Part shown: positions 4,001 to 26,769 of the stretch, one piece after another
Position numbering within the stretch: position 1 is the stretch's first letter
Layout: each line of letters opens with the position of its first letter
Source: Syncephalis fuscata
Taxonomy: Eukaryota; Zoopagomycota; Zoopagomycetes; Zoopagales; Piptocephalidaceae
Direction of reading: 5' to 3'
Assembly (NCBI GenBank): GCA_025786725.1
Contig: JAHLTZ010000026.1
Coordinates: 62,001 to 126,000 of the forward strand
Length of the DNA: 64,000 nucleotides
Notes under the pieces: model-generated
Database searches by the model: none
What the model was told of the DNA's origin: nothing
What the model saw: only the letters and a program-made list of their open reading frames with translations
Program-made: the position numbers and the translations under genes

Positions 4001-7000
4001 TTATTCTCGACAAGCTCGTTTCACCATTTCACGCGCCCATCGTGCAACATTTCTGGCAGCTTAGTAGCATATCGACTGGAACGGCCGTCACGTAGACATT
4101 GCTGTACCCAAGGTGCAGTTAGTGCCAGTGTTAGTTCGCCTTCTGGATAAGTTTCGGCCAAATCGCCTAATAATCCAACAAGGCCGCCTAGTACTTGTGG
4201 AGATCGGTTGGGTGTATTGTAGATTTCTTCCATGTTAAGGAAAATGCCTGGTACATATTGAATAAGGCCATCGGTAGCATTGGCGGCCTTAAGACCCTGT
4301 GTAATGCCGATATATGCCTCAAGAATGCCACTACGTAGTGCATTGCCGTATTCAACCATCTCGTAGTTGGTTGGTTCTATTTGATATTGGCATGCTAGCT
4401 GGATGGCTGTCATGACATTGGCCAAGAAGGGTGTGAATTGCGCGTTAATAGCGAGGGCAATATCGCCGACACAGGCTAGTACGGCTGGTTTGACTGCCGT
4501 GTTAACATTAGAACTGTAGAGCATTTGGCCGAGTAGTTCCATAAATGAATTGCAGAATGGGACCACCTGTTCGCCTAGAGCACGGCACAGATCACCTACC
4601 AGACCAATGGCAATCAAGCAAAGTTGGTGTTCATCGTGCTTCTGTAGTGCTGTACACAAGAATGGCACAAATGATTCGACATAACGTGCGAAATCAACCT
4701 CCAAAGCGGCAGTCAAGGCGCTAATGCATAGGAAAACATCCTCGGTCACAATGGAGGAACGGCCAGTGTTGACCTGCAGATGCGCAGCAAAATGGTCATA
4801 AGACGATCGGATACAGGTACGATGTCCTTGCTGAGGCGGCGCGTGATAGAGGTAAGTACCGAGCATACGTTCGACTGCAGCTCCGTGTATGCAGCACGGT
4901 CATCGGCATTGACAATCTGTTCCTGCAAGTCAAAGGTTGTTTCGAGACGAGTGAGCATGCCATCGGCAATGGCTAGAATAGTGTTGAAGCAGTCGCGTGG
5001 TGCAGATGCAATGATGCTTGAAAGCGCTTCGTAGGCTGATGTACGTGCATTATTTTCATTATCGGTACGGTCACCAACTTGAGTCAATGCCGTGGTGATT
5101 CCTTCAAAGTATTGGGAGAGTGGATACGTTTCAAGTACATCTATATCATCGCCCAATTGCTGTCCCAAATTCATGAGCGACCAGCTACAATTGGCAATAA
5201 TCTTGGGTGAGTCGCTTAATCCGGCCACTAGAGCAGCCACAAGTGGATGCAACTGAGTTTCCAGATTGATCGTTTGAATAAGTAATTCACACACACGGCC
5301 AAGTGTCCAGGCTGCCGTGTCCTTCACCTGGATTACTGGATCTTTAACCATTTCGATTAAAAGAGGGAAGGCTTGCGCCACCAATGGAGCAAGATTTTCA
5401 GGCTGTGGACCATCAAGAATAGAACCGAATGCCATTACTGCTGCTTCACGGCCGTGCCAGTTCTCATTGCGAATATTACTTTCGATAAATGGAATAACAG
5501 GTGGCACAATATCGCCGCCTACACACTGGGCAAGCAGTGCGAGACAAGTGGCTGCAGCCATTGATACATTCCAGTCATCGTCGTCAGCATCCTCTTCCTA
5601 TAACCGGTAATAAAAGCGTGTTAATATCATTTAAAGTTAAGTGCAATTACGTGCTTACCTGTTTTGTAAGCAATAAAAGCAATACTGGCAATACTTCAGG
5701 TAGTGCCTTCTTAGCAAATTGCATGCTTTCACGTTGTGGCTCATCGCCGAGTTCTTGAGCTTCAAGGGCCAAATCGGTTAACTCAATCTCTTCATCACAA
5801 ACAGTAGACCAGAATTCAATGGCTTGTAAAGCAACTCGTTCATCGTCGTTCTTCATGCCCATAATTGTAAGGGAGTAGAGTGCCTGTTCCATGTACAGGC
5901 CCATACGATCATAGTAAAGCTGCATGATACGCACCATCGTCTCAAATGCTGCCACTTTAACTCGATCATCTGCACTTTGTGTGGCCTCACACACCAATTG
6001 CATGATGTAATTACGTTGGCCCTATAAAAATTATTATTATTAATAAATATACTATTACACCGATGAAACAACAACAACAACAACAACTTACTTCATTATC
6101 GAAATTAGAGCGTACAAATTCCAAAGAATTGTAAAGCGCATTAATTGCGGCCAATCGGACCTCTTGACTAATTAAATATTAACAAATAAACATCAATAAA
6201 TAAACATTATTATACAAGTATACTATACTTACTCAGTTTCTTGTTGATTAGCACCTTCAGCAACAGCCGTTAGAATTTGACTTGATTGCGCAGCGAGAAT
6301 GGATGGATCCTAGTACATTAGTTGTATCCACTGATTGTTATTACCAAATTCAATAAATACCACATCAATCTACTTACAATTGCCTCGCATACATAACCAA
6401 TTGCTTTAAGAGCCGATTTTTTCAACGAAGCATTATTACCACCTGAAATACTGGCCAATAGCTGCTGAATAAGCTCTAACCACTGTCCCATAGGAATTTC
6501 AATGGACGCAATAGCTGCAACGACCTAGAAATGCATCATCATCATCAATCCATAATGTAAGCTATCGTTAATTATAAACAATTTCGCTATTTACCTGAGC
6601 TACATTGTTACCAACAAAGCTATTGGGTGTTGCAAGTGTTTGCAAAACCTATAATACAAATTGATAAGCCATACTTATTTAACATCATCTATTTCACATG
6701 AAAATAGACATTATAGATCACCTACCATTTGTTTAATTTGCTGGCGTGTATTTGGGTCGATGGACATCCACTTTTCGGCCAGTTCTTGTCGCCGAGGTGC
6801 TTCCTAATTTCATGCAATGCATGTGTCAGTGTGTACAGTGCAAATTGTGTCCACTACTCGTTTACATACCCGTGCCGTCATCGTATTCTTGAGCGCCAAC
6901 GCAGCCGCTGTACGCACATTAGCCTCACTGGCTTCGTTGGCCATTTCCTGACAGAGCATGACCGTATACGTCGGCTATTAAAGAGAACACCATGTAGAAA

Positions 7001-19361: not shown

Positions 19362-20290
19362 TGTAGCCGCTACTTATTATCAATAAAGCACCATTTTAGC
19401 TATATTTCTTGGCTTTTTACAGTTCTAACTCCTTGTCCATTTATACTTATGCATGTGCATTATTTATTAAAGGAGTACTATTTTTGGTCATACCATTTAG
19501 TTACACAAATCATATCAAACAACAAGATAACGGACCAGTAGGCAAGTGGCCACAAAACTATTTCTGGTGTTTAATTGGCTCGGTCTTTATTCGCCGAATG
19601 TATAGGTGCATTTTAACCGAACCTGAAAGGTAAAGCTTAGTATCAAACAGTAACGAATTTAAAATCAGATAACAATTTATACTGATTAATCAGCAAAATA
19701 CTGAGACTAAAAATTCACTATCAGTTTCCCCAATAAAATCTAGATATATCCTATTTTCAACTTTATAATAGTGGTTATAGCTTTGTTTGTTGTTTACTGT
19801 TGTGTAAAAACATAATTAATTTATTAAATATTTGCTTTGTTTTTTACCTGGTGCTATTCGTAAATCTGTCCTGTTTTTGATGTTGCATCTACGAATTTTA
19901 CATTGCTTGGCGTAATCTTTTACACTAGTTCCGACCAAGCAAAACGCCGAGGTGATGTGTCATTTACGGACAACTAGTGTCCGATCTCCGGATTTGTGCA
20001 ACTAGTAACGACAGCAATGTGCTAATTCCCAGCAATGAATTCTGGCGCATGCTTTGTAAAGAATTGTGCAGGTATTCACTTGTACATTTTCCGTTTATAT
20101 ACATAATCCGAAATACCGAGTATTGTAGTGATGCGACATTATTTATAAATACTCCTGACAAGTTTAGAATAAAAATAATCATCGCCTTTTAAAAACAAAT
20201 TTGCATTTTTTTTTACCATAGGACTATTGAGTAAACGACCCTTTTTATTTTATTTCATTATTATCGTTTATCTAGCATAAAGTGTCAACT
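19362..20290. other. Intergenic, upstream of ABCG gene
   Basis: Frames at 19409-19633 and around 19964-20192 (overlapping on both strands) have no recognisable motif and are probably chance. T-rich DNA precedes the ABCG start. Confidence 0.35.
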
Positions 20291-22501
20291 ATGGATAATA
20301 AAGCCGATTTTGCTCATACAGAAGAGTTACGTTCAATTAATATTGAACGAACAGACACACGGGCTACGCGTAGTCGGCCAACTGAAGAACTGCAGCTTGT
20401 CTTTCGCAACCTGCGCTACACTGTGCCTATTATTGATACAGCAACAAAAAAAGCCACCACAAAAACTATACTTAACGATGTCACAGGCGTTTTTAATCCT
20501 GGTCGACTAACCGTTATTCTTGGCTCGTCCGGCGCTGGTAAAACATCACTACTTAATGTACTCGCCGGTGAATCGACAACAAATGCTGGCAAGCTTACTG
20601 GCGAACTACTTGTTAATGGCCAGCTAACAACTGGTCATGAAATCCGTAAAATGGCCGGTTACGTTTACCAAGACGATATCATTTATCATACAATGACAGT
20701 ACGTGAAGCTGTTACATTTTCCGCCCAGCTACGACTACCAAAAAGTGTGGGCGATGATGCTAAACGCGAACGCGTTGAAGATTTACTCTCGTTACTCCAT
20801 TTAACAAAGGCTAGCGACACATTAATCGGCAATGATCGTATTAAAGGCGTCAGCGGTGGTGAACGTAAACGAGCCAGTATTGCCATGGAACTCGTTACTA
20901 ATCCTGGCATTCTTTTCCTCGACGAGCCAACCAGTGGACTTGATAGCTTCACTGCCCTTACTGTCATACGCATCTTAAAAGAACTTGCACAGGCTGGGCA
21001 CACAATTGTTGCAACGTTGCATCAACCTTCTTCAGAAATCTTTCATTTGATCGACGATCTAATGCTTATGTCTGAAGGCCGTGTTCTTTATATGGGCGAA
21101 GCATCGAAATCAATTGACTACTTTGCTCGTCGTGGCTATCATTGCCCACAATATTCAAACCCGGCCGATTTCTTTTTCATGTCAATCTTTCATAAATCTG
21201 ACAATGATACAGAAACGACAGCTAATAATGGCGACCAATTAACGATAGCTGCAGCAACCAATGATACAATAACCGAGGTAGCTAATTTAGCCGACAACAA
21301 ATCAACACTGGTCCGCCGTACACCGAACAGCTCGTCAGATGTTGTCGGACATATGGCACGTAAAGCAGCAGCAGCCGATATTGCTGCTGCTCATGAACGT
21401 CTTCGGGATTTACTTGATCAATGGCCGGTTTCTCCTGAAGGCGTCGATCTTCAACTAGCCGCTGATTCGCCACACTCGGGCGGTTTCTCTGATTCCAATC
21501 GTAAATATCGCAGCAGCTTTTTCGAACAATTTCCGCTTATTCTAAGAAGAGCTGCAAAGAACGTATTACGCGATAAATTTATTATAGGCGCAAAACTAGG
21601 CCAAACACTTGTATTTACAATCATTTTTGATCTGATCTACTGGCAGGTGCCAAATCGTATTCAAACATCACAAGTACAGGTAATTACTAACTAGCTATTA
21701 TATTATATAGCAAGACTAATATCTATTCTTTTTATCAGGATCGATCGGGTGTTTTATTCTTTTACGCTGCCAATCTAGTTATGTCTAATGCTATGGGTAA
21801 GCTGCTTACTTTATTTATTAATACTTTTACTAATTCATTGTTTATTAGGCGTTCTAACGGTATTCAGCATGGAACGATCAACATTTGCCCGTGAAAATCA
21901 TAGTGGACTTTATGGCTTACCAGCCTTCTTTTTCTCAAAACTTGCCGTCGAACTTCCCATTTATCTGCTTACTCCTACTCTGCTTGTATCAGCGACCTAC
22001 TGGGCCATTGGTTTAAACCACGATGTAGGCCGATTTTTCCTCGCTTGTCTCATTGCCATTCTACTTAGCGGTGCCGGCATGTCAATGGGCTTGGCCGCAG
22101 CTTCCTTCTTCAACGAACTGTCGGTTGCACTTGCCGTCGTACCTACCATCATCTTGCCTATGATGATCTTTGGTGGTCTATTCGCTAACGTATCAACAAT
22201 TCCCGTCTGGATTCGCTGGTTCAAATGGCTTAGTCTAATGAAGTATGGTTTTGTCGCGTTTGCCAAGAACGAATTCCAAGGATTAACTGTCGGCTGTGGC
22301 GACGACGTACCAGCTGCAGCGTGTATTCCTATGGATGGCCAAACTGTCATTAAAAACCTTGGTATTGAAGATCAAGGATCAGTTTGGCTTAATATTGGTG
22401 TGCTAGCTGCATGGTGGATCGGTTTTACGGCCTTCTCCTATTTCGGTTTATGGCGTATGGTACGCAGTGGACGAGGAGGACGTAAGATCAAAAAGGAATA
22501 A
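20291..22501 (+). CDS. ABCG-family (White/WBC) half-transporter
   Basis: This ATP-binding cassette half-transporter exports lipids, sterols or xenobiotics as a dimer. Exons are 20291-21679, 21739-21796 and 21849-22501, with introns of 59 and 52 nt. The order is ABC domain first, then membrane domain, the reverse layout typical of subfamily G. Visible motifs are Walker A GSSGAGKTSLLN, Q-loop YVYQDD, signature VSGGERKRASIAM, Walker B ILFLDEPTSGLDS and switch His in ATLHQPSSE. The linker is about 110 residues and Ala/Asp-rich. The membrane part carries the subfamily hallmark FFYAANLVMSN, then FSMERSTFARENHSGLYGL, and a last extracellular loop with paired Cys. The start is the ATG at 20291 (MDNKADFAHTEEL). 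The frame is clean and about 700 residues long, normal for the family. The substrate cannot be told. Confidence 0.95.
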
Positions 22502-24401: not shown

Positions 24402-26769
24402 TTAGACTGTTTATGAATATGCACAACATATCACATCTAGTTAGTGTATAAATCAGGAATATATAACATTGCTTACAGACTGGTAATATAAATATTAGGA
24501 CACAAACAGTGTATGATATATGCTTAGTATAGAAACAATTAATATATAATACCGCTTACATGCTATTAATAAAAAATAAACACGCACATTGAATGCTACG
24601 TGTTTAGAGTATGAAAACTAATACATAATGCCACTTACATGCTATTAATGCAAGTTATTAGATACACATAATGCACGATATATATATTTAGCGCATAGTC
24701 AGTCAATATGCAATGTCGCTTACGATCTATCATTACAAGATATCAAACATACAAGATGCATGGTATATGTTTAGAGCGGATAGTCAATACACAGTTTTAC
24801 TTACTATCTATTGATACAGGTTATTGGATATGCATAGTTCATATCACATAGTTAGCGTATAGTTAATTAATAGACTGTGTCGCTTACTAGCTGTTAATAC
24901 AAGTTGTTAAACACACAGATCGTATAATGTATGCTTAGTATATAGCTAGTGAGTATACAATGCCACTTACGATCTAACAATATAAGGTATTGGCCATACA
25001 CAATGCATGGCATGTATTAGCATGTAATTAGTAATATATAATATCACTTACTAGCTATTAATATGTGTATTAAATACACGTGGTTCATGGTATATGTTTA
25101 GTATATAGGTAGTTATTATACAAATACACTTACAAACTATTGATATAAATTATTAGACACACACAATGCATGGTGTATGTTTAGTATATAGTCACTAATA
25201 TACGATGCCACTTACTCCCTATCAATACATATTATTAAATATACATGGTGCATGGCATATGCTTAATATATAGCTATTGCATACACAATATCACTTACCA
25301 GCTATCAATACAGGATGTTGGGCATTATATGCCATGTCATATGTTTAATGTATAAATAAATGATATACAGTATCACTTACGAGCTATTAATACAAGTTGT
25401 CAGACACAGACAGTGTATGGCATGCGATTAAAGTACAACTCAATATACGATTCACTTACAAGCTATTAATCAAAATGATTGAACACACACGATAAATGCC
25501 ATATATTTAGTGTATAGTTAGGTAATGTACAATGCTATTTACCATCTATTAGCACAGATATTGCACACACACGCAATGTATGATATATTAATATTGTATA
25601 GCTAATTAACATACAATATCACTTACTTTCTATCGATGCAAATTATTAACATATAATGCACGCCATTTTTTAGTAGATAGCTAATAGTATGCAATGTCAC
25701 TTACGAGCTAATAATCCAAAGTATTGACCACATATGGCACATAGTATATGATTAGTATATAGCTATTAGTTATAGAGCACAACTTACGGGCTACATTGCA
25801 AGTTATTAAACACAAACCGTGCATCTTATGTGTTAGTATTAGTTAATTAGCATGAAATGCCACCTACTGGCTTTGATACAAGTTGTTAGACACGCACAGT
25901 GCATAAAATATGTTTAATTTTATAATTAGTTAATACACAATGCTATTTACCATCTAGTGACATAAGATTTGAATTATTGTAGCACATTTCATATGTTCAG
26001 CACATGGCTGACCAATATGGGATGCCACTTACCAGCTATTAATACAAGTTGTTAAAAGTTACAACACATGTCATATAGTTGGCGCATGTCTAATTAGTAT
26101 ACAATTCCGCTTACCTCCTATTAATAAAGCATTAGAATTACATCACATGCCATATATTCAGCACATGGCTGCTTAATAAAATACTACTTACCAACTATTA
26201 ATACAGTTGTTAGGCATAAACAGTGCATGGCATGTAGTTAAAGCATAGATAGCCAATATACAGTTCACTTACAGGCTATAATACAAGATATTAAACATAT
26301 ATGGTGCATGGCATGTATTTAATATGTAGATAATAAACATACACTGCCACTTACATGCTATTAATACAGTTAGTAAACACACATCATCACATAGCTTATG
26401 CTTAGTGTATAGCCAAGTAATATATACGCTACTTACATTCTAATGCTGTTTTATTAAACGCACACATTGCATGATATGTGTTTAGTGTATCATTAATTAG
26501 TATATAGTTATACTTACCCACTATTGATGCAAGTTATTAGACATACAAAATAAATAGCGTATAATTAGCGCATAAATGATTAGTACATAATGCTACTTAC
26601 TTTTTATTAGTGTTATTTAGTAATGTGAATAGCGTTTAACTAAATGAATAACTAGCTTTTGTAATGACAACATACCGCGACGAACTAGGACTAGTGTAGC
26701 ATTCACCATGGATGTAGTAGCCACAAAAACTACAATGATAGTACAAACGGTGGCAATAGAAAGCTTCAT
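24402..26769 (-). CDS. Secreted peptide gene built from 26 single-codon (3-nt) microexons
   Basis: The predicted spliced coding length is 177 nt from 2368 bp of DNA. Exon 1 (26769-26676, 94 nt, phase 1) encodes a signal peptide (MKLSIATVCTIIVVFVAT, likely cut after MVNA), then TLVLVRR. Then come 26 exons of 3 nt each, with introns of 70-82 nt, and a terminal exon starting at 24406 whose first bases finish a Phe codon and give TAA (24404-24402). The first intron is 155 nt. The microexon part begins VESSFGADAT, continues PQNASPGISN and ends PNNPSFF; it is free of stops, hydrophilic, and rich in Pro/Asn/Ser/Ala with one N-glycosylation sequon (NAS). RR just before it is a plausible Kex2-type processing site, so this part may be the mature secreted peptide. 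What is seen: exact AG-NNN-GT in all 26 units and a frame closing on a stop. Inference: that it is transcribed and spliced this way. No homologue is recognised. Confidence 0.8.
24407..26603 (-). repeat. Tandem array of ~82-bp intron-plus-codon units (27 units, one decayed)
   Basis: On the minus strand each unit reads GTAAGTGGCATTGTATATTA (5' part), a TACTAAAC-like motif in the middle, CATATGCCATGCA, a GTGTGT stretch, and a 3' end like TTGTATTAATAG, then three variable bases. Triplets by lower plus coordinate: 26518 TGG; 26437 AAT; 26355 CAT; 26273 CCT; 26192 TTG; 26115 GAG; 26033 CTG; 25951 ATG; 25868 CCA; 25788 CCC; 25705 CTC; 25627 AAA; 25543 ATG; 25460 CTT; 25381 CTC; 25299 CTG; 25216 GGA; 25134 TTT; 25052 CTA; 24971 ATC; 24888 CTA; 24805 ATA; 24724 ATC; 24639 CAT; 24560 CAT; 24477 TCT. 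All 26 have AG before and GT after; 19 different triplets occur. Donors are GTAAG in 23, GTAAA in two and GTAGG in one. Confidence 0.95.
26601..26603 (-). pseudogene. Decayed 27th microexon (lost acceptor)
   Basis: At the position expected for the first unit, the triplet AAA is followed by a perfect GTAAGT donor, and the distances to exon 1 (72 nt) and to the next unit (80 nt) fit the array. However, the base pair before it is AA where every other unit has AG. It should therefore be skipped, giving the 155-nt first intron. Including it would still keep the frame (adding Glu-Met in place of Val). A base-call error restoring AG cannot be excluded. Confidence 0.6.

Follow-up and report, generated by a model that had tools for sequence, protein, structure and literature searches.

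Putative arrays of one-codon exons in a large family of candidate secreted peptide genes in Syncephalis fuscata

Can a protein-coding gene be divided down to one codon per exon, and can this be kept up for dozens of exons in a row? A locus in Syncephalis fuscata (order Zoopagales) raises this question. Syncephalis species are parasites of other fungi. The locus lies within bases 62001–126000 of contig C179, a stretch of 64,000 nucleotides that was analysed whole and that we call the window. An earlier note on this DNA had proposed that a gene on its minus strand is assembled from 26 consecutive exons of 3 nt. We followed this proposal through the window and through the genome (28.95 Mb, 299 contigs), and we think it very probable that the window gene is one member of a large S. 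fuscata family of peptide precursors, which are probably secreted.

Anatomy of the window gene

We read the window gene directly. All 26 triplets are present on the minus strand, each with AG before it and GT after it, and the predicted introns separating them measure 74–82 nt, with a first intron of 155 nt and a last intron of 70 nt. Exon 1 (26769–26676, 94 nt) ends in phase 1. Joined to the 26 triplets and the two bases TC of the terminal exon, it yields 58 codons followed by TAA, 177 nt in total, and when reading of the triplets instead starts one base into the first of them, a TGA follows after six codons. These particulars agree with the earlier note except in one detail: the stop had been placed four bases into the last exon, and TAA actually begins at the third base of that exon. 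The parts of the gene, as read from the sequence, are as follows.

26676–26769, minus: exon 1, coding sequence for a putative signal peptide and a short pro-part with Arg-Arg at its end, then one base (phase 1); conserved in paralogs
26521–26675, minus: intron 1, 155 nt, containing the putative relic unit
26601–26603, minus: putative relic microexon AAA, with acceptor TAATAA instead of TAATAG
26518–26520, minus: microexon 1, TGG
26437–26439, minus: microexon 2, AAT
26355–26357, minus: microexon 3, CAT
26273–26275, minus: microexon 4, CCT
26192–26194, minus: microexon 5, TTG
26115–26117, minus: microexon 6, GAG
26033–26035, minus: microexon 7, CTG
25951–25953, minus: microexon 8, ATG
25868–25870, minus: microexon 9, CCA
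25788–25790, minus: microexon 10, CCC
25705–25707, minus: microexon 11, CTC
25627–25629, minus: microexon 12, AAA
25543–25545, minus: microexon 13, ATG
25460–25462, minus: microexon 14, CTT
25381–25383, minus: microexon 15, CTC
25299–25301, minus: microexon 16, CTG
25216–25218, minus: microexon 17, GGA
25134–25136, minus: microexon 18, TTT
25052–25054, minus: microexon 19, CTA
24971–24973, minus: microexon 20, ATC
24888–24890, minus: microexon 21, CTA
24805–24807, minus: microexon 22, ATA
24724–24726, minus: microexon 23, ATC
24639–24641, minus: microexon 24, CAT
24560–24562, minus: microexon 25, CAT
24477–24479, minus: microexon 26, TCT
24402–24406, minus: first bases of the terminal exon; TC is the end of the last codon, TAA at 24404–24402; the 3' UTR runs to lower coordinates

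Intron 1 holds a relic-like unit, TAATAA/AAA/GTAAGT (26609–26595, minus), whose acceptor has no AG; in most other family models intron 1 measures 66–74 nt, the exceptions being L002, L003 and L041. The absence of the AAA exon leaves the frame of the window gene unaffected.

The array is repetitive. The window contains 21 copies of AGNNNGTAAGT, where 100 shuffles gave 1.68 on average and never more than 6; 18 of the 21 fall inside the microexon array, part of which (24930–25310, minus) is called as a repeat by Tandem Repeats Finder, with periods of 82 and 165. Rfam and tRNA scans of the whole window gave no match. The open frame of the window gene is weak evidence when taken alone, because 26 random codons often stay open, and it is the family that decides.

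Two other genes in the window were looked at. Near the array is an ABC transporter gene (20276–22501, plus; PF00005 and PF19055 in 20276–21694), which has a seemingly ordinary short intron. An importin beta-1-like gene lies at 4021–5597 (minus; 4746–5597 scanned), and its nearest named relatives, at 56–60%, are from Coemansia and Kickxella.

A large family in the genome

A DNA search of the genome with the window gene found at least 79 matches (40 of 355 candidates scored), and a leader query found at least 150 matching places (343 candidates). The exact pattern of leader plus Arg-Arg occurs at 159 sites, compared with 1 for the reversed control, and 84 of these sites directly adjoin the same phase-1 donor (reversed control, 0). 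Paired units of the form TAG-NNN-GTAAGT ... AG-NNN-GTAAGT number 2,761 in the genome and 0 in the reversed search. All of these counts include some near-identical copies, and the 159 sites are pattern counts; genes were modelled at 28 of 33 loci, the others being L043 and L045, where the peptide is free of introns, and L027, L032 and L039, which gave no model.

The paralogs that we fetched have similar arrays with triplets quite different from those of the window gene. Two copies elsewhere that are 99% identical to the window gene retain the frame and all 26 units. A further 99% identical fragment (L004, G000:C179:35311-35850), located on the same contig at a distance of about 50 kb, covers only the last part of the query. 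The array of 26 triplets that had been described as a single gene stands, and what changes is its scope, which is that of a large family.

Exon 1 of the family encodes a conserved hydrophobic N terminus, a putative signal peptide on inspection of the sequence. It ends in Arg-Arg in 16 of 20 models (not in L033, L034, L035 and L036), some models carry further KR or RR across exon joins, and the motifs LAKR, SKR and PKR can be read across joins in family models.

Exon length and splice sites

Chains of exons were assembled with a script that left exon length free between 0 and 24 nt, had no length preference and required phase 1 at the end of exon 1; its splice-site profiles were derived from AG-NNN-GT sites. 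In 17 models built in this manner, 485 of the 505 internal exons had a length of exactly 3 nt, and a second length-free run gave 591 of 626 in 20 models. A later run that allowed GC donors and favours 3 nt by construction gave 765 of 805 in 28 models, with a median intron of 79 nt. The longest unbroken series, in L046, comprises 49 one-codon exons.

The predicted introns have GT-AG ends with an extended donor and acceptor consensus, as spliceosomal introns do. AG and GT were required in the profile of these sites; donor positions 3–6, which were not imposed, are kept at 97–99%. Eleven of the 805 introns in the 28-model run begin with GC, and GC-AG introns were seen within the arrays of L046, L041, L048 and L021. 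In the models of L028 and L037 the second internal exon has a length of 0 nt: acceptor and donor abut, which resembles a recursive splice site; L024, to which they are related, carries a triplet at this position.

Triplet order and reading frame

In all 20 models examined without imposing the phase, exon 1 stops at phase 1 (15 models after removal of near-identical copies). We permuted the order of the triplets within runs 10,000 times, dropping runs of fewer than four triplets and the near-identical L002, L003, L022, L035 and L036, which left 602 triplets and 570 joins in 23 gene models. The phase-1 frame contains 1 stop in 570 joins, compared with a mean of 20.9 in the shuffles, none of the 10,000 being as low, and 37 Cys codons compared with 23.8 (P = 0.0001); these P values are too small to some degree, as some of the 23 arrays are related and not independent. 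The other frame that can be tested by shuffling has 45 stops against 45.0 expected and no excess of Cys (31 against 34.0). The single phase-1 stop falls at the next-to-last join of L033 and may be the real end of that gene. With cruder models, an earlier run had found 5 stops where 25.8 were expected and 40 Cys codons where 28.3 were expected.

The scarcity of stops is specific to neighbours. Across all 28 models, joins of each triplet to the next contain 3 stops in 705 (0.43%), whereas the seven wider spacings, from i+2 to i+10, contain 3.05–4.57%. Since stops are scarce in neighbouring joins only, selection appears to see a product in which every triplet is included in order. On this evidence from the genome sequence, the triplets appear to be coding and to be included constitutively, in the order in which the genome has them.

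In half of the models (14 of 28) the frame stays open as far as the terminal exon and ends at a stop within it, in a run that imposed no terminal layout, although two of these are doubtful: L040, whose terminal exon is unlike the others, and L050, which has a 16-nt exon. The layout seen in the window gene, two bases followed by TAA, was found in 13 of the 28 models of that run. At L021, L022, L024, L028, L029, L031 and L037 the model continued to an extra exon past the terminal one, which we read as false; these seven loci do end in a terminal-exon stop in a run that searched for one, which is no test. L033, L035 and L036 meet a stop near the end of the array, no terminal exon was found for L038, and L041, L047 and L048 lose the frame at an exon of 2 or 4 nt. 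Altogether 7 of the 28 models hold an exon that is not a multiple of three (L041, L047, L048 and L050, and, after the stop, L033, L035 and L036), and such genes are either broken or wrongly modelled.

Relatives without introns in the peptide

In L043, L045, L051 and L052, the DNA reads from the leader straight to a stop, encoding a peptide without introns. The predicted microexon product of L044, which has six Cys, aligned to the uninterrupted L051 with a score of 62, compared with a maximum of 49 in 2,000 shuffles of exon order; none of the other comparisons between microexon and uninterrupted members, 12 in all, was as good, and most were weak. L044 scored 48 and 45 against L052 and L045, values that 1 and 3 of 2,000 shuffles reached, and for L042, L046 and L048 against L051, L052 and L045 between 14 and 729 of 2,000 shuffles were as high. 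When full-length L044 was used as a query it reached uninterrupted frames over nearly its whole length, the leader carrying much of the score; a genome search with the leaderless L044 peptide produced no match at E values up to 10. A Cys pattern, C-x2-C-x3-C ... C-x3-C, is common to L045, L051, the annotated protein P0127 (known from protein only) and the L044 microexon product. An AlphaFold prediction for P0127 from one sequence had a mean pLDDT of 66 and no PDB match at E ≤ 0.001, and we claim no fold.

A profile search of about 5.8 billion proteins, with low sensitivity for short variable proteins, returned 12 matches, all from S. fuscata. Among these 12 annotated proteins, P0121 and P0122 being judged from protein alone, none was seen to follow the one-codon-exon model. 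The first 31 residues of P0124 are those of L023 exon 1, and its continuation differs from the array reading. P0123 contains RRAVEPLAKRA, and L029 and L031 give RRAVAPLAKRA, a string that spans modelled exons of 3, 3, 15 and 3 nt. On the same contig as P0123, which is known from protein only, an open frame of 116 codons is found at a leader site (C1:523550). With 12 annotated proteins from one search set against 159 leader sites, annotation may largely miss the family.

Change within and between arrays

Adjacent introns within an array are similar, with a median identity of 74% over 558 pairs. In L034, a block of five units has been duplicated at 98% identity, and QSEST occurs twice in the product. 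Between the paralogs L025 and L030, substitutions number 1 in 94 positions of exon 1, 3 in 243 at splice sites, 294 in 1,938 in introns and 21 in 78 in triplets. Splice sites and introns are less clearly separated than this in three other pairs: L024/L028 (9 of 144 against 115 of 1,256), L024/L037 (10 of 153 against 167 of 1,340) and L028/L037 (11 of 144 against 249 of 1,248). For L001/L002, 0 of 234 splice-site and 22 of 1,975 intron positions differ, too few to decide.

Triplets outpace introns in L025/L030 (21 of 78 against 294 of 1,938, P = 0.01), and triplet changes also exceed the intron rate in L024/L028 (12 of 48), L024/L037 (12 of 51) and L028/L037 (13 of 42). We do not claim positive selection on the triplets, because shifted units could cause this excess.

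Alternative readings of the arrays

Tandem units with similar introns would be expected if the array were a noncoding satellite or one large intron, AG-NNN-GT belonging to a repeat unit that is spread together with the gene and exon 1 being joined directly to the last exon. The units are indeed tandem repeats, adjacent introns being 74% identical (median), and exon 1 and the last exon would likewise join in frame. But that direct join would leave almost nothing downstream of the leader to serve as a peptide, some family members encode the peptide without introns, and triplets vary widely among paralogs beside a donor that is strongly kept (97–99% at positions 3–6). Stop depletion and Cys enrichment are confined to neighbouring triplets in one frame. 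We consider this reading very improbable, and reject the noncoding satellite on the ground that stop depletion depends on triplet order. A coding array could also be used differently, with the triplets serving as cassette exons of which different subsets are spliced in, allowing a single gene to yield many peptides and no frameshift. Skipping any 3-nt exon preserves the frame, and some units look degenerate, such as the relic at 26603–26601 and the 0-nt exon in the models of L028 and L037. Yet joins that skip exons carry 3.05–4.57% stops, compared with 0.43% for neighbours, as if selection had seen the all-included product, and skipping would presumably break the Cys patterns. Selected cassette skipping is unsupported given the stops in exon-skipping joins, and we regard the reading as improbable.

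A related doubt concerns the window copy itself, which might be a decaying member of a real family. It seems to be one unit short through an acceptor change, and we recognise no motif in its peptide. It nevertheless keeps 26 pairs of splice sites and an open frame, and its two 99% copies retain the frame and all 26 units; the changes at splice sites and in introns in L001/L002 (0 of 234 and 22 of 1,975) are not numerous enough to settle the matter. We judge decay unlikely, if somewhat less so than cassette use. The triplets could, finally, be whole codons in phase 0, reached through another exon-1 donor and giving a Leu-rich hydrophobic peptide. Stops are rare among the triplets themselves (1 of 602), their middle base is often T (285 of 431), and this is the frame that shuffling of order cannot test. 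Against it, all 20 exon-1 models end in phase 1, and it is the phase-1 reading that yields the surplus of Cys, the dibasic motifs and the alignment with L051. Exon-1 phase and the uninterrupted relatives lead us to reject phase 0, to which we give scarcely any credence. The proposal that the window gene is built from one-codon exons is supported by this follow-up, through the neighbour-specific depletion of stops, the excess of Cys in the same frame only, the phase of exon 1 and the relatives with intron-free peptides.

A proposed route from array to peptide

We propose that exon 1 supplies a conserved signal-peptide-like leader, usually with an Arg-Arg of the kind that Kex2 cuts, and halts one base into a codon. 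The variable peptide would be carried by the tandem array, in which each unit of about 80 bp combines one intron with one 3-nt exon. All introns would be removed, each 3-nt exon completing one codon with two bases and opening the next with its third, and the frame would close in the last exon. Exon definition copes poorly with exons of 3 nt, so the splice sites are likely to be recognised across the short intron instead, and splicing would be constitutive, by intron definition, with the short introns removed one after another. A Kex2-like protease would then cut after RR or KR, and the peptide would be secreted. Every unit carries 3 nt of exon, so gain or loss of a unit adds or removes single residues without frameshift. 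A role of the peptides in contact with the fungal host is a guess from the parasitic lifestyle and from the likeness to microexon families of other parasites.

More broadly, we lean towards the view that a parasitic fungus diversifies secreted peptides by duplicating, deleting and reshuffling codon-plus-intron units, and that Cys-patterned peptides arise from up to 49 consecutive one-codon exons that the spliceosome joins in strict order. S. fuscata would then be a further independent parasite case beside schistosomes and aphids. If this is right, coding sequence can be split so finely that each exon accounts for a single residue, dozens of times in succession and across a family; with splicing as we propose, this would be the most extreme exon fragmentation known to us. 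The arrays would bear on how the spliceosome handles 3-nt exons without skipping them, would offer a visible route by which tandem repeats turn coding and a peptide is altered residue by residue without frameshift, and would suggest that microexon-built secreted proteins arose again in a parasite.

Comparison with known systems

Secreted peptides of fungi that are processed by Kex2 are characterised by repeated peptide motifs within one precursor (PMC6339444). A leader and dibasic sites are found in the S. fuscata family as well, which differs in its gene structure and in usually lacking peptide repeats. Plant and animal microexons reported down to a few nucleotides lie within ordinary genes; they approach the S. 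fuscata exons in size, and arrays are not mentioned in the accounts cited (PMC8831610, PMC8042270). Functional microexons were stated to be previously undescribed in filamentous fungi in the account of Xlr2 of Trichoderma virens, which is fungal too but concerns a single regulated exon in a transcription factor (PMC11121469).

The bicycle and megacycle genes of aphids, candidate effectors that change fast, have many small exons whose first base is codon position 2; the mean is about 17 exons in bicycle genes, megacycle genes have more than 100, and one megacycle gene encodes 2,092 residues in 118 exons (PMC9168663). Internal exons of the S. fuscata family start at the same codon position. The aphid genes are those of an insect and have longer coding sequence per exon, and the descriptions cited include no 80-bp tandem units or one-codon exons.

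As judged from titles and the beginnings of abstracts, in a search whose scope left subscription journals mostly outside, arrays of one-codon exons were not described and no paper combined microexons with Zoopagomycota; literature on series of 3-nt exons and on Syncephalis introns, judged likewise, described no such architecture.

The micro-exon genes (MEGs) of Schistosoma mansoni are described as encoding secreted parasite proteins in series of short, mostly in-frame exons that are hard for automatic annotation, with exons of 6–81 bp (3–81 in the abstract), mostly 15 bp, 10–20 of them per gene, and introns of 0.1–5 kb (PMC10526429). The profile search of about 5.8 billion proteins, whose sensitivity for such short variable proteins was low, matched S. 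fuscata proteins and brought out no sequence relation to MEGs or bicycle genes. The S. fuscata family differs in being fungal, in its tandem-repeat introns of about 79 nt and in its exons, which are 3 nt long in 485 of 505 cases when length is left free and stand up to 49 in a row. It resembles MEGs in that probable secreted proteins of a parasite are encoded in serial short in-frame exons. The one-codon-exon architecture may be categorically new, and it may be the far end of the micro-exon gene kind.
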